The notes under the pieces: model-generated
Databases searched by the model: none
The model's input: only the letters and a program-made list of their open reading frames with translations
Told to the model about the DNA's origin: nothing
Translations under genes and position numbers: made by a program
In this document: positions 9,711 to 36,511 of the stretch, in pieces
Position numbering within the stretch: position 1 is the stretch's first letter
How the letters are laid out: each line of letters starts with the position of its first letter
NCBI RefSeq assembly: GCF_016907555.1
Contig: NZ_JAFBCE010000001.1
Location: 2,356,001 to 2,420,000 of the forward strand
Reading direction: 5' to 3'
From: Microbacterium laevaniformans
GTDB lineage: Bacteria; Actinomycetota; Actinomycetes; Actinomycetales; Microbacteriaceae
Length of the DNA stretch: 64,000 bases

Positions 9711-9716
9711 TACAAT
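9711..9716 (+). promoter_or_regulatory. -10 element TACAAT for a leaderless mRNA
   Basis: TACAAT ends six bases before the GTG at 9723. Its paralogue at 10810 has TACTCT at exactly the same distance, so promoter and start arrangement were duplicated or conserved together. Confidence 0.6.
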
Positions 9717-9722
9717 CGCACC

Positions 9723-10079
9723 GTGGGCACGATCTATTACGGGGGCTCGGCTACTCCGATCCATATCGAGGACAGGGTGCTCGCACACCTGAAGGTGGTC
9801 GTGGCCACCAAGCTCCGCCGCGGCGAGAGCTTCACCGTGTCGTGGCAGCACCCCGACGGCGAGACCCGAGGCCGCAGCACCATCTGGCTGCATCCATCGA
9901 TCCCGTTGCGCTTCGTTTTCGACGATCCCGAACCCACCGAGCTGAACCGTGCGTGGATCGAAGAGTTGGCCCAGTCGGCGAGCACGTCCGGCGGCATCCA
10001 GCTCACCGAAGAGCAGATCGAGTCGGTCGAGGGTGACGCGGACAACGCTCCCCAGACGGTCGCCGTCGCCGACGACTGA
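9723..10079 (+). CDS. Small Microbacteriaceae-type protein (DUF7882-like), copy 1
   Basis: A 118-residue soluble protein. The shared core is DRVLAHLKVVVATKLRRGESF, then a tryptophan-containing segment, STIWLHPSIPLRF, and LNRAWIEELAQSA, followed by an acidic tail. It is clearly paralogous to the protein at 10484-10810. From memory, this family is restricted to Microbacteriaceae and is often mislabelled ATP-dependent DNA ligase in databases; nothing ligase-like is present. The function is unknown. The start is a GTG six bases after a TACAAT hexamer. Confidence 0.75.
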   Translation: MGTIYYGGSATPIHIEDRVLAHLKVVVATKLRRGESFTVSWQHPDGETRGRSTIWLHPSIPLRFVFDDPEPTELNRAWIEELAQSASTSGGIQLTEEQIESVEGDADNAPQTVAVADD

Positions 10080-10084
10080 TCGCC

Positions 10085-10390
10085 TCAGAGTCCGCGCGCC
10101 GGAGGGAAGTGCGGGATCGGAACCGGCCGGCTCGAGGTCGACTGTTCTTGCGCCCGGAGGATCTCTTCGCCTCTTTCTACGCACTCCTCCAGCGACGACA
10201 GACGTGATCGCCGAGCACCGCCTCTGATCCAGACCGTCTCGAACCCGCCGTCCGTGCGCTCGATGTAGGCCACGACGAACTCGGCATCGCGTGCGCTCAC
10301 GCGCCGGTCGCACAATCGCCAGGCATCCTCATCGATCGGGAGGAGTTCGAGGCGGCCGCCGACATGCGCTGTCTGCGTCATCGCCGTCAT
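10085..10390 (-). CDS. Conserved hypothetical protein
   Basis: About 101 residues with no family I can name. It looks like a small folded cytoplasmic domain: GGRLELLPIDEDAWRLCD, a beta-rich middle FVVAYIERTDGGFETVWI, then a helix SLEECVERGEEILRAQ and a proline-rich tail. It sits between the two DUF7882-like paralogues, ending five bases from the first one, which is convergent. The ATG at 10388-10390 is preceded by AGAAGG at about 11 bases; starts 24 bases upstream or 9 bases downstream are possible. Confidence 0.6.
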   Translation of the reverse strand: MTAMTQTAHVGGRLELLPIDEDAWRLCDRRVSARDAEFVVAYIERTDGGFETVWIRGGARRSRLSSLEECVERGEEILRAQEQSTSSRPVPIPHFPPARGL

Positions 10391-10483
10391 CGTCGTCACC
10401 GCCTTCTCCCCCACTGTCGGGGAAGCCAGCCGGCGGGGCGAGGGGATTGACAGCTTGCCGCACCCGTGCGACGCGCGAGGCCG

Positions 10484-10810
10484 TCAGCCGGTCAAGACCT
10501 CACCGGAGTAAGGCCCCTCGGGCTCGGGGACGATCTGCAACCCCGCCGTCGAGTTCGCGGCGTGCGTCAGCGCCTCCAGCCACGCCCGGTTCAGGGCGGG
10601 CTGACGGCTGCCGTGGTACGAGTAGACGATCGATGCGTGCGGGTGCAGCCAGATGGCCGTGCGCCCGTCACCGAGGCTCGTGTCGTTGCGCCATGTGAAG
10701 GTGAATGTCTCGCCGCGGCGGAGCTTCTGACTGATGACGACCTGCAGGTGCGCGAGCACGCGATCGTCGAAATCGGCTTTCACATTGCCGTCGTAACTGA
10801 ACCGTCCCAC
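10484..10810 (-). CDS. Small Microbacteriaceae-type protein (DUF7882-like), copy 2
   Basis: A 108-residue paralogue of the protein at 9723, with MGRFSYDG, DDRVLAHLQVVISQKLRRGE, TAIWLHPHASIVYSY and LNRAWLEALTHAAN matching at the same spacing. It lacks the long acidic tail of copy 1. The function is unknown. The GTG start follows TACTCT by six bases, the same layout as copy 1, which argues that both are expressed from their own leaderless promoters. Confidence 0.75.
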   Translation of the reverse strand: MGRFSYDGNVKADFDDRVLAHLQVVISQKLRRGETFTFTWRNDTSLGDGRTAIWLHPHASIVYSYHGSRQPALNRAWLEALTHAANSTAGLQIVPEPEGPYSGEVLTG

Positions 10811-10859
10811 CGCTCCAGAGTAACGTGCGAGTCACGTGCGCCCCGATCGGCTCGATCCG

Positions 10860-11135
10860 TCAGGCGAGCGCCGCCGTGCGTCGGGAGATCTCCGCGCACG
10901 CCCGGTCGGCACCCAGGATGTCGGAGGCGAGCGAGGTCGTCGCGTCCAAGACGGCGACGGGGATGCCGCTGCCGAGGAGCATCCGGCAGACGCTGAGGGC
11001 ACCGTCGTCGATGCTGGGGAACTCGACGATGTCGGTCGAGCCGGTCTGGTTCAGTCGATGCGCGTACGTCAGCACCGCATCCGCGACGTCATCGGTCGTG
11101 AGGATGCGATGCCCCTCGATCAGGATGTCTTTCAC
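10860..11135 (-). CDS. Conserved hypothetical protein
   Basis: A 91-residue acidic protein, MKDILIEGHRILTTDDVADA at the start, with a possible nucleotide-fold-like alternation (IVEFPSIDDGALSV, then IPVAVLDATTSLASDIL). No family recognised. The start is a GTG with GAGG about ten bases upstream. It belongs to the group of small genes between 9.7 and 11.4 kb that carry no known function. Confidence 0.6.
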   Translation of the reverse strand: MKDILIEGHRILTTDDVADAVLTYAHRLNQTGSTDIVEFPSIDDGALSVCRMLLGSGIPVAVLDATTSLASDILGADRACAEISRRTAALA

Positions 11136-11281
11136 GGTTCGACCTCGCCGGGGATCGTCAGTACGTGGGATGGTGATCCTCAGTACAGCCGAACCGGGCG
11201 GCCTCGACGAGGGGCTTGACAGCCTCCCGCGACGATGTCAACCCCCCGCGCCCGCGCTCGCGACGAGGGCACACTGAGCGC

Positions 11282-11437
11282 ATGGCACTCGCACTCATCC
11301 TTCTCATCGTCGGTATCGTCCTGATCCTTCTCGGCGTCTTCGTCGAGGCGGCGAAGTTCCTGCTGTGGATCGGACTGGTCATTCTGCTCATCGCGATCAT
11401 CGCGTGGCTCATGCGCGTCGTGAAGCGCAACGCCTGA
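11282..11437 (+). CDS. Small two-helix membrane protein
   Basis: Fifty-one residues made almost wholly of two hydrophobic segments (ALALILLIVGIVLILLGVF and LLWIGLVILLIAIIAWLM) with a basic C-terminus VVKRNA, so the tail is probably cytoplasmic. The frame is open further upstream, but the ATG at 11282 fits the protein start and has CACACT, a plausible -10 variant, six bases before it. The function is unknown. Confidence 0.65.
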   Translation: MALALILLIVGIVLILLGVFVEAAKFLLWIGLVILLIAIIAWLMRVVKRNA

Positions 11438-34743: not shown

Positions 34744-34899
34744 CCGAAATGACACCGTGTCCACGATCCGGGGTCAAGGCCCACCTACACCCTCATCTGG
34801 GAAGAGCCTGGTTTGGCGCAGGCACCGGTCAGATCTATGTCGCCGACGCACTGAGGCATCGCAAGAGAGCTACAGGACTGTCATGTCTCAGTCTCAGAG

Positions 34900-34988
34900 C
34901 GGAGACGGAGGGATTTGAACCCTCGGTCCCCGTAAGGGGACTCCACCTTAGCAGGGTGGTGCACTAGGCCTGACTATGCGACGTCTCC
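34900..34988 (-). tRNA. tRNA-Ser(GCT)
   Basis: An 89-base tRNA with acceptor pair GGAGACG/CGTCTCC, anticodon loop CTGCTAA (anticodon GCT), the long variable arm of class II tRNAs (GTCCCC/GGGGAC) and T loop TTCAAAT. CCA is not encoded. It reads leftward towards the IS3 element, whose end lies about 120 bases away; that gap shows nothing recognisable. Confidence 0.95.
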
Positions 34989-36391: not shown

Positions 36392-36426
36392 GGGGGACCT
36401 TTCGACAGCGGGCACGACCGCTTCTG

Positions 36427-36511
36427 CGGAGGGTGTGGGATTCGAACCCACGGGACATCTCTGCCCACCGGTTTTCAAGACCGGGTCCATCGGCCGCTCG
36501 GACAACCCTCC
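36427..36511 (-). tRNA. tRNA-Ser(TGA)
   Basis: An 85-base class II tRNA with acceptor GGAGGGT/ACCCTCC, anticodon loop CTTGAAA (anticodon TGA), long variable arm and T loop TTCGAAT. It lies 35 bases upstream of the LCP start on the same strand, so the LCP mRNA may be processed from a tRNA-containing transcript. CCA is not encoded. Confidence 0.95.

Follow-up and report, generated by a model that had tools for sequence, protein, structure and literature searches.

A conserved and recurrent module of small genes around DUF7882 proteins in Microbacterium laevaniformans

Gene content of the locus

The source genome of Microbacterium laevaniformans is one contig of 3.03 Mb, and the window, i.e. the whole stretch of 64,000 nucleotides that was analysed, corresponds to its positions 2356001-2420000. 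In this window, five small genes are flanked by a flavin reductase-like gene on one side and a fatty acid desaturase gene on the other, in the left-to-right order A (+), X (-), B (-), Y (-) and Z (+). The five open reading frames listed in a preliminary description of this DNA were all present, with the lengths given for A, B, Y and Z. The length of 101 residues given for X is correct when counted from the ATG, but its reading frame opens with a GTG at position 10414, from which it encodes 109 residues. The features of the locus, in window coordinates and with the evidence for each in brackets, are as follows.

9711..9716, plus strand: TACAAT, a -10-like hexamer separated from the GTG of A by six bases (sequence, enrichment)
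9723..10079, plus strand: gene A, DUF7882 protein of 118 residues, A-type branch (PF25355, AlphaFold2, tree row L002_701, codon-position constraint)
10085..10390, minus strand: gene X, hypothetical protein of 101 residues, between A and B (open reading frame, recurrence near DUF7882)
10484..10810, minus strand: gene B, DUF7882 protein of 108 residues, non-A-type branch (PF25355, tree, codon-position constraint)
10817..10822, minus strand: TACTCT, a -10-like hexamer separated from the GTG of B by six bases (sequence, enrichment)
10860..11135, minus strand: gene Y, protein of 91 residues from a multi-copy family without a name (AlphaFold2, family counts)
11282..11437, plus strand: gene Z, very hydrophobic protein of 51 residues with an ATG start (open reading frame, neighbour conservation)

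A and B had been described as paralogues, and both proved to be DUF7882 (PF25355) members with scores of 131.4 and 127.6 bits, respectively, against a Pfam cut-off of 27, the matches extending over profile positions 1-97 of 97. The Pfam scan gave no PF25355 match for X, Y or Z, and nothing convincing was found for these three proteins in Pfam, NCBIfam or PADLOC or, in the case of X and Y, in PHROGs. Y is encoded on the strand of B, 49 bp upstream of it. By visual inspection, Z was judged to be a membrane protein, and it is probably a conserved neighbour that stands outside the fold group described below. Substitutions at third codon positions dominated in A, B and Y and were less clear in X; X also has a low codon-usage score and was missed by the gene caller, yet it is conserved. 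Judging from these sequence comparisons, the cluster genes look protein-coding and under constraint.

Many DUF7882 proteins bear the RefSeq product name 'ATP-dependent DNA ligase', which the preliminary description mentioned and considered wrong. The scans bear out this doubt: neither Pfam nor NCBIfam detected a ligase domain in A or B, and a ligase identity of these proteins of 118 and 108 residues was rejected on that ground. Their likeness to such ligases lies in the name alone, and some DUF7882 copies directly adjoin LigD. In loci L126, L127 and L132, a LigD gene is immediately next to DUF7882, and these LigD neighbours do have ligase domains; we infer that the name may have arisen from them. 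In these three loci and in L124 and L125, all from one other Microbacteriaceae genus, the region with DUF7882 also holds LigD, topoisomerase IB, a short-chain dehydrogenase and a DUF7218/Rho_N protein, and it is a possible DNA-repair or stress island. Elsewhere in the window, ARAGORN revealed two tRNA-Ser genes at 34899-34988 and 36426-36511, and only the first passes the Rfam cut-off.

A GTG start just behind a -10 hexamer is the layout of a leaderless mRNA, which is known in Actinobacteria. The spacing of exactly six bases that had been reported for both paralogues was confirmed for the hexamers of A and B. Of 140 DUF7882 starts, 56 had a TANNNT hexamer whose end lay 4-8 nt upstream, vs. 141 of the 1056 other genes from these loci, which makes this layout about three times commoner ahead of DUF7882, with start positions assigned by our own rules. 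As read from the sequence, the putative leaderless layout is real, yet it is common to more DUF7882 genes than A and B. Since A and B are read in opposite directions and each has a -10-like box of its own, the two genes do not form one operon.

Distribution and clustering of DUF7882 genes

We searched the genus, the family and the class for DUF7882. The family profile matched in 183 of 198 genomes of the genus and in 158 of 249 genomes of Microbacteriaceae, representing 57 of 85 genera. Among 394 genomes of the class, 19 were positive and all 19 were Microbacteriaceae, in agreement with the earlier suggestion that these genes are lineage-specific. The 158 positive family genomes contain 779 matches, from 1 to 17 each, with a median of 5. 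In the genome studied here, a third copy lies beyond the window; it overlaps by 4 bases with a gene of 113 residues assigned to cluster 71 (c71; L137:6610-7274); a cluster 71 gene occurs again beside a DUF7882 copy, in the same place, in locus L048. In addition, plasmids of six Microbacteriaceae genera carry DUF7882 relatives (records H1-H17), one Microbacterium proteolyticum plasmid at six places.

The DUF7882 copies are clustered far beyond chance. In 19 genomes, a second DUF7882 was found within 5 kb of 44 of 92 copies, vs. 1.3 expected, where the 92 copies are 94 rows minus two that came from one frame-split copy. In 25 genomes picked for carrying both DUF7882 and Y, this was the case for 82 of 139 copies, vs. 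2.0 expected. A DUF7882 copy split over two frames (G034:C1:606898-607184) is probably a pseudogene or a sequencing error.

The neighbourhood of A is conserved beyond the single strain from which it had been described. Among the best 80 of 113 relatives of A, a convergent second DUF7882 lay within 1.5 kb in 57, followed by Y in 14, while X was present in 12 and Z in 12; these relatives were gathered with the single protein A as query, which favours A-type loci. The closest relative among the best 80 of 113 is from Microbacterium sp. oral taxon 186 F0373, with 98% identity. Relatives of A also occur in two records whose titles name Stenotrophomonas maltophilia P13 and Planococcus sp. APC 4015 (77% and 74%; L265, L316), which looks like contamination or mislabelling. 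A phage origin of the genes was rejected on the grounds that B had no match in 50,697 phage records and that only weak matches were found in PHROGs. Anti-phage defence was likewise rejected, as PADLOC assigned 0 families to 7 proteins (A, X, B, Y, Z, one c10 and one c13, the last two from the families described below). The cluster is a real, conserved and recurrent small-gene module, largely undescribed, around a recently named family.

Partner families and the composition of DUF7882 pairs

Within the genus, 66 of 99 genomes contain a member of the Y family. In the 25 genomes chosen for both families, 19 of 46 Y copies lay within 2 kb of a DUF7882, vs. 0.35 expected, and the remaining 27 were farther than 2 kb from any; in 12 of the 19 close pairs, Y was upstream on the same strand. 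A further family, c10, was found in 31 of 150 Microbacteriaceae genomes, other Microbacterium species included, and had no match in the genome studied here. In 30 c10 loci, one per genome and with our own gene calls, c10 was directly downstream of DUF7882 in 26, an arrangement that recurs across genera; the ends of the two genes overlapped in 21 of these 26 (18 by 4 nt and 3 otherwise), and Y was beside c10 in 14 of the 30. The family c13 takes a place resembling that of c10 in several loci. Members of the X family lay within 2 kb of DUF7882 in 10 of 44 cases, vs. 0.34 expected (26 genomes, window included), and relatives of Z were present in 24 fetched loci. Kinship of X with the DUF7882 fold or with c71 was rejected, since the profile comparison gave it no support.

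The A-type DUF7882 proteins form a clade of 53 rows in the phylogenetic tree (support 93/90, under the tool's star). Neighbouring DUF7882 genes consisted of one A-type and one non-A-type member in 33 of 48 pairs, a number reached by 20 of 5000 label shuffles. This composition depended on orientation, with 30 of 35 opposite-strand pairs mixed and 10 of 13 tandem pairs of the same type; these counts leave aside the loci fetched through A and include orthologous loci of related species. Several different non-A branches act as the partner. An earlier count of 103 mixed pairs among 118 was discarded as biased, because it included 80 loci that had themselves been retrieved with A.

The median isoelectric points of Y, c10 and c13 are 4.2-4.7 and that of the DUF7882 cores is 6.2, while the whole A and B proteins have values of 4.7 and 6.5, respectively; this charge pattern may favour the mixing of subunits, but only loosely. 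A ferritin-family gene lay within 5 kb of DUF7882 in 6 of 25 genomes by hand count, and five of the six are Dps-like and apparently represent one orthologous place, so Dps is weak as a functional partner and was rejected.

Predicted folds and distant relatives

The preliminary description had expected a small folded domain that may bind a ligand or a nucleic acid, and structure prediction of single chains, run for A and Y, bears out the small fold. The AlphaFold2 models had a pLDDT of 86.8 and a pTM of 0.73 for A, and 92.8 and 0.83 for Y. The elements of the A model are E2-6 E13-15 H17-32 E37-42 E51-56 E62-65 H76-86 and those of the Y model are E2-6 E9-13 H15-31 E35-43 E46-54 E61-64 H76-90, and an element-by-element comparison revealed the same strand-strand-helix-strand-strand-strand-helix order at nearly the same places. 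Y had been listed as a gene of 91 residues; it is as described, and its product is probably a relative of DUF7882, with the same order of predicted elements and a profile link through c10. What is new here is that Y represents a second multi-copy family with the predicted strand-helix order of A.

Profile comparison of 39 families placed c13, Y, DUF7882 and DUF3107 as the best four matches of c10, the ties with c13 and Y being firm and those with DUF7882 and DUF3107 weak. The observed scores were reached by 0 of 150 column shuffles for c10-Y and for c10-DUF3107, and by 1 of 150 for c10-DUF7882. Direct similarity of the DUF7882 profile was not significant with Y, c13 or DUF3107, for which 10, 19 and 71 of 150 shuffles, respectively, reached the score. 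The same order of elements in A and Y, together with the profile links of c10, makes a predicted fold common to A, B, Y, c10 and c13 likely and fairly supported. Three of the five cluster genes (A, B and Y) seem to encode members of a single, expanding set of very small proteins, of which Microbacteriaceae carry many copies.

Foldseek gave no significant match in the PDB for either model. In a second structure search, the A model matched Rv3208A best among the solved structures, weakly but ahead of the next unrelated row (Z 2.3): the octameric and hexadecameric forms gave Z 4.2 and 3.8, with rmsd 2.6 and 2.7 over 59/66 and 57/63 aligned residues. For the Y model, the top PDB rows were CutA proteins with Z 3.5, and Rv3208A was not listed; kinship of Y with CutA was rejected, since this score was tied with many other rows. 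The DUF7882 profile had three matches among solved structures, all with E of 1 or more, which were taken as chance. Rv3208A (TB9.4) is a member of DUF3107 (PMC5108770). The DUF3107 protein of the genome studied here matched 7rus and 7rur (Rv3208A) as well as 9nip with E 1e-12 or better, and 9nip was named 'Small RNA-Binding protein (SRB)' by its depositors, its RNA binding being known from this name only; a literature search for the publication behind 9nip found none.

Kinship of the group with DUF3107 (PF11305) is possible. DUF3107 proteins are likewise small and, by the titles of the entries, oligomeric in crystals, and the weak structural match of the A model and the weak profile link through c10 point the same way. 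They differ in having one copy in every genome with the family, which is present in 57 of 60 sampled genomes of the class, and A, B and Y gave no PF11305 match, the DUF3107 of this genome being a separate gene. A second proposed likeness, to the bacterial pleckstrin-homology ring PDB 3DCX, concerns a ring made by edge-strand addition and comes from the AlphaFold3 comparison of the CryoRhodopsin authors (PMC12227055). Pleckstrin-homology entries were absent among the displayed fold-search rows for A, an absence that is no proof of difference.

Relationship to rhodopsins

A literature search for DUF7882 and PF25355 returned no description besides the CryoRhodopsin paper (PMC12227055), which in 2025 filed the family as the putative cytoplasmic transducer of CryoRhodopsins. 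In the AlphaFold3 models presented there, DUF7882 is predicted to form pentamers and the rhodopsin tail to add an extra strand to the sheet, so that both the pentamer and the tail binding are predictions of those authors. The earlier proposal of a candidate undescribed system holds in part: the module is largely undescribed, but its central family is already in print as putative CryoRhodopsin transducers. No experiment on these small proteins was found.

No rhodopsin (PF01036) match was present in the genome studied here, while the same search was positive in 64 of 249 relatives, 33 of which had no DUF7882. Conversely, no rhodopsin (E <= 0.001) was detected in 127 of the 158 Microbacteriaceae genomes bearing DUF7882, four in five of the carriers searched. 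Rhodopsin is thus the exception among the carriers of a family published as a putative light-signal transducer, and because this strain and most carriers have none, the DUF7882 group probably has another job. DUF7882 adjoins 12 and is missing at 8 of 20 sampled rhodopsins of a weaker-scoring group (20 of 25 matches with E 3e-31 to 6e-17), whereas none of 30 better-scoring rhodopsins had a DUF7882 within 1.5 kb. Among 291 loci fetched otherwise than through rhodopsin, most though not all of them through DUF7882, none contained a rhodopsin. Locus L148 has the order DUF7882-rhodopsin-Y; the idea that Y replaces DUF7882 beside this rhodopsin was rejected, as tblastn found an uncalled DUF7882 there, and likewise in L147.

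In the tree of DUF7882, which was built from 139 sequences over about 100 columns and has many open forks, the rhodopsin-linked copies formed an eight-row clade and a pair, and all ten fell within one 30-row clade (support 98/94); two of the 12 linked copies (L147 and L148) are not among the tree rows. A and B were placed outside this 30-row clade. The tree suggests that a transducer role, if real, is that of one branch of a wider family. A and B resemble the CryoRhodopsin transducer in being full-length members of the same Pfam family, but they sit on other branches, are paired together and with Y, and belong to a genome without rhodopsin. The module is a rhodopsin-free version of the DUF7882 setting, with new partner families.

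Possible functions of the module

The best explanation, to which we give not quite even credence, is that small proteins of the same fold form a recurrent module of mixed rings that act as adaptors. A, B and Y would be single-domain members of one small-protein group that has expanded in Microbacteriaceae, and they may assemble into rings through edge-to-edge pairing of strands. An A-type DUF7882, a non-A-type DUF7882 and an acidic partner (Y here, c10 or c13 elsewhere) would give mixed or paired rings; each ring would be an adaptor that takes up its client at the free edges of its strands or on its face and relays the signal through tails that vary and are probably disordered. In one branch, the client would be the cytoplasmic tail of CryoRhodopsin, as in the published model (PMC12227055), while in this rhodopsin-free strain it would be a different one, perhaps RNA or the tail of some other protein. 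We infer both the mixed assembly of A, B and Y and the adaptor function here. In favour of mixed rings are the high share of mixed types among opposite-strand pairs and the position of c10 behind DUF7882. Against them count the opposite strands of A and B, the lack of c10 in this genome and the Y copies that lie apart from DUF7882. Y and c10, as recurrent partners, provide concrete complexes for the field to test.

The main rival is that RNA is the client, for which the analogy consists of the weak structural match and the name given by a depositor. DUF7882, Y, c10 and c13 would then be distantly related to DUF3107 and act in post-transcriptional regulation as the actinobacterial counterpart of Hfq, the many paralogues serving different RNAs. 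Besides the match of A to Rv3208A and that of the resident DUF3107 to 9nip, this is consistent with the c10-DUF3107 profile score, which narrowly exceeds all 150 shuffles (19.1 vs. 18.0), and with the full or almost full conservation of K30, L31, R32 and R33 across 90 aligned DUF7882 sequences. However, a Z of about 4 may reflect a common arrangement only, DUF7882 and DUF3107 have no direct sequence similarity, and the DUF3107 score of c20, an unrelated family of the neighbourhood, is close to that of c10 and exceeds it when the alignments are smaller. In addition, Y, c10 and c13 are acidic, although DUF3107 is acidic too (median pI 4.8), and the RNA binding of 9nip is known from the entry name. 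We regard RNA-binding rings as unlikely, if deserving of attention: a tie to a family named for RNA binding, if true, would make many genes called 'hypothetical' or misnamed 'DNA ligase' interpretable.

A wider proposal, speculative and in our judgement a little less probable again, is that a DUF3107-like fold was turned in Microbacteriaceae into combinatorial hetero-oligomeric rings, which would serve as interchangeable adaptors in regulation by binding RNA or peptide tails. These rings would bring together DUF7882 chains of the A type and of other types with acidic subunits of the Y, c10 or c13 families; a genome offers as many as 17 DUF7882 chains for this, besides several partner chains, and the CryoRhodopsin transducer would be one borrowing from this ring toolkit.

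It is also conceivable, but improbable, that no joint system exists and that a duplicating family of small proteins has piled up in hot spots, each copy with a minor role and the clustering left over from duplication and insertion. The wide variation in copy number and the plasmid copies would fit such a history, as would the LigD, topoisomerase IB, short-chain dehydrogenase, Dps-like ferritin and RelA/SpoT-domain genes found at some of the same places. On the other hand, opposite-strand pairs mostly join different branches and are not fresh duplicates, tandem pairs being those that are mostly alike, and the overlap of c10 behind DUF7882 recurs across genera.

Least probable is that A and B serve as rhodopsin-style transducers for an unrecognised membrane sensor, with Z or the fatty acid desaturase as the membrane part, a role suggested by the DUF7882 genes adjoining weaker-scoring rhodopsins, by the gene order of L148 and by the recurrence of Z relatives in DUF7882 loci (12 of the best 80 of 113 A loci), but opposed by the lack of rhodopsin in this genome, the position of A and B outside the rhodopsin-linked clade, and the absence of DUF7882 beside all 30 better-scoring and 8 of the 20 weaker-scoring rhodopsins.

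Two observations concern rhodopsins away from DUF7882. Several Microbacteriaceae genomes of 1.2-1.8 Mb have a rhodopsin match and no DUF7882. Three loci of one genus (L150:4441-5810, L151:4545-6075 and L156:3961-5321) contain another type of rhodopsin, also without DUF7882, and a gene of 156-178 residues (cluster 97) lies close upstream on the same strand, with a 4-base overlap in two of the three; its product is possibly another rhodopsin transducer.
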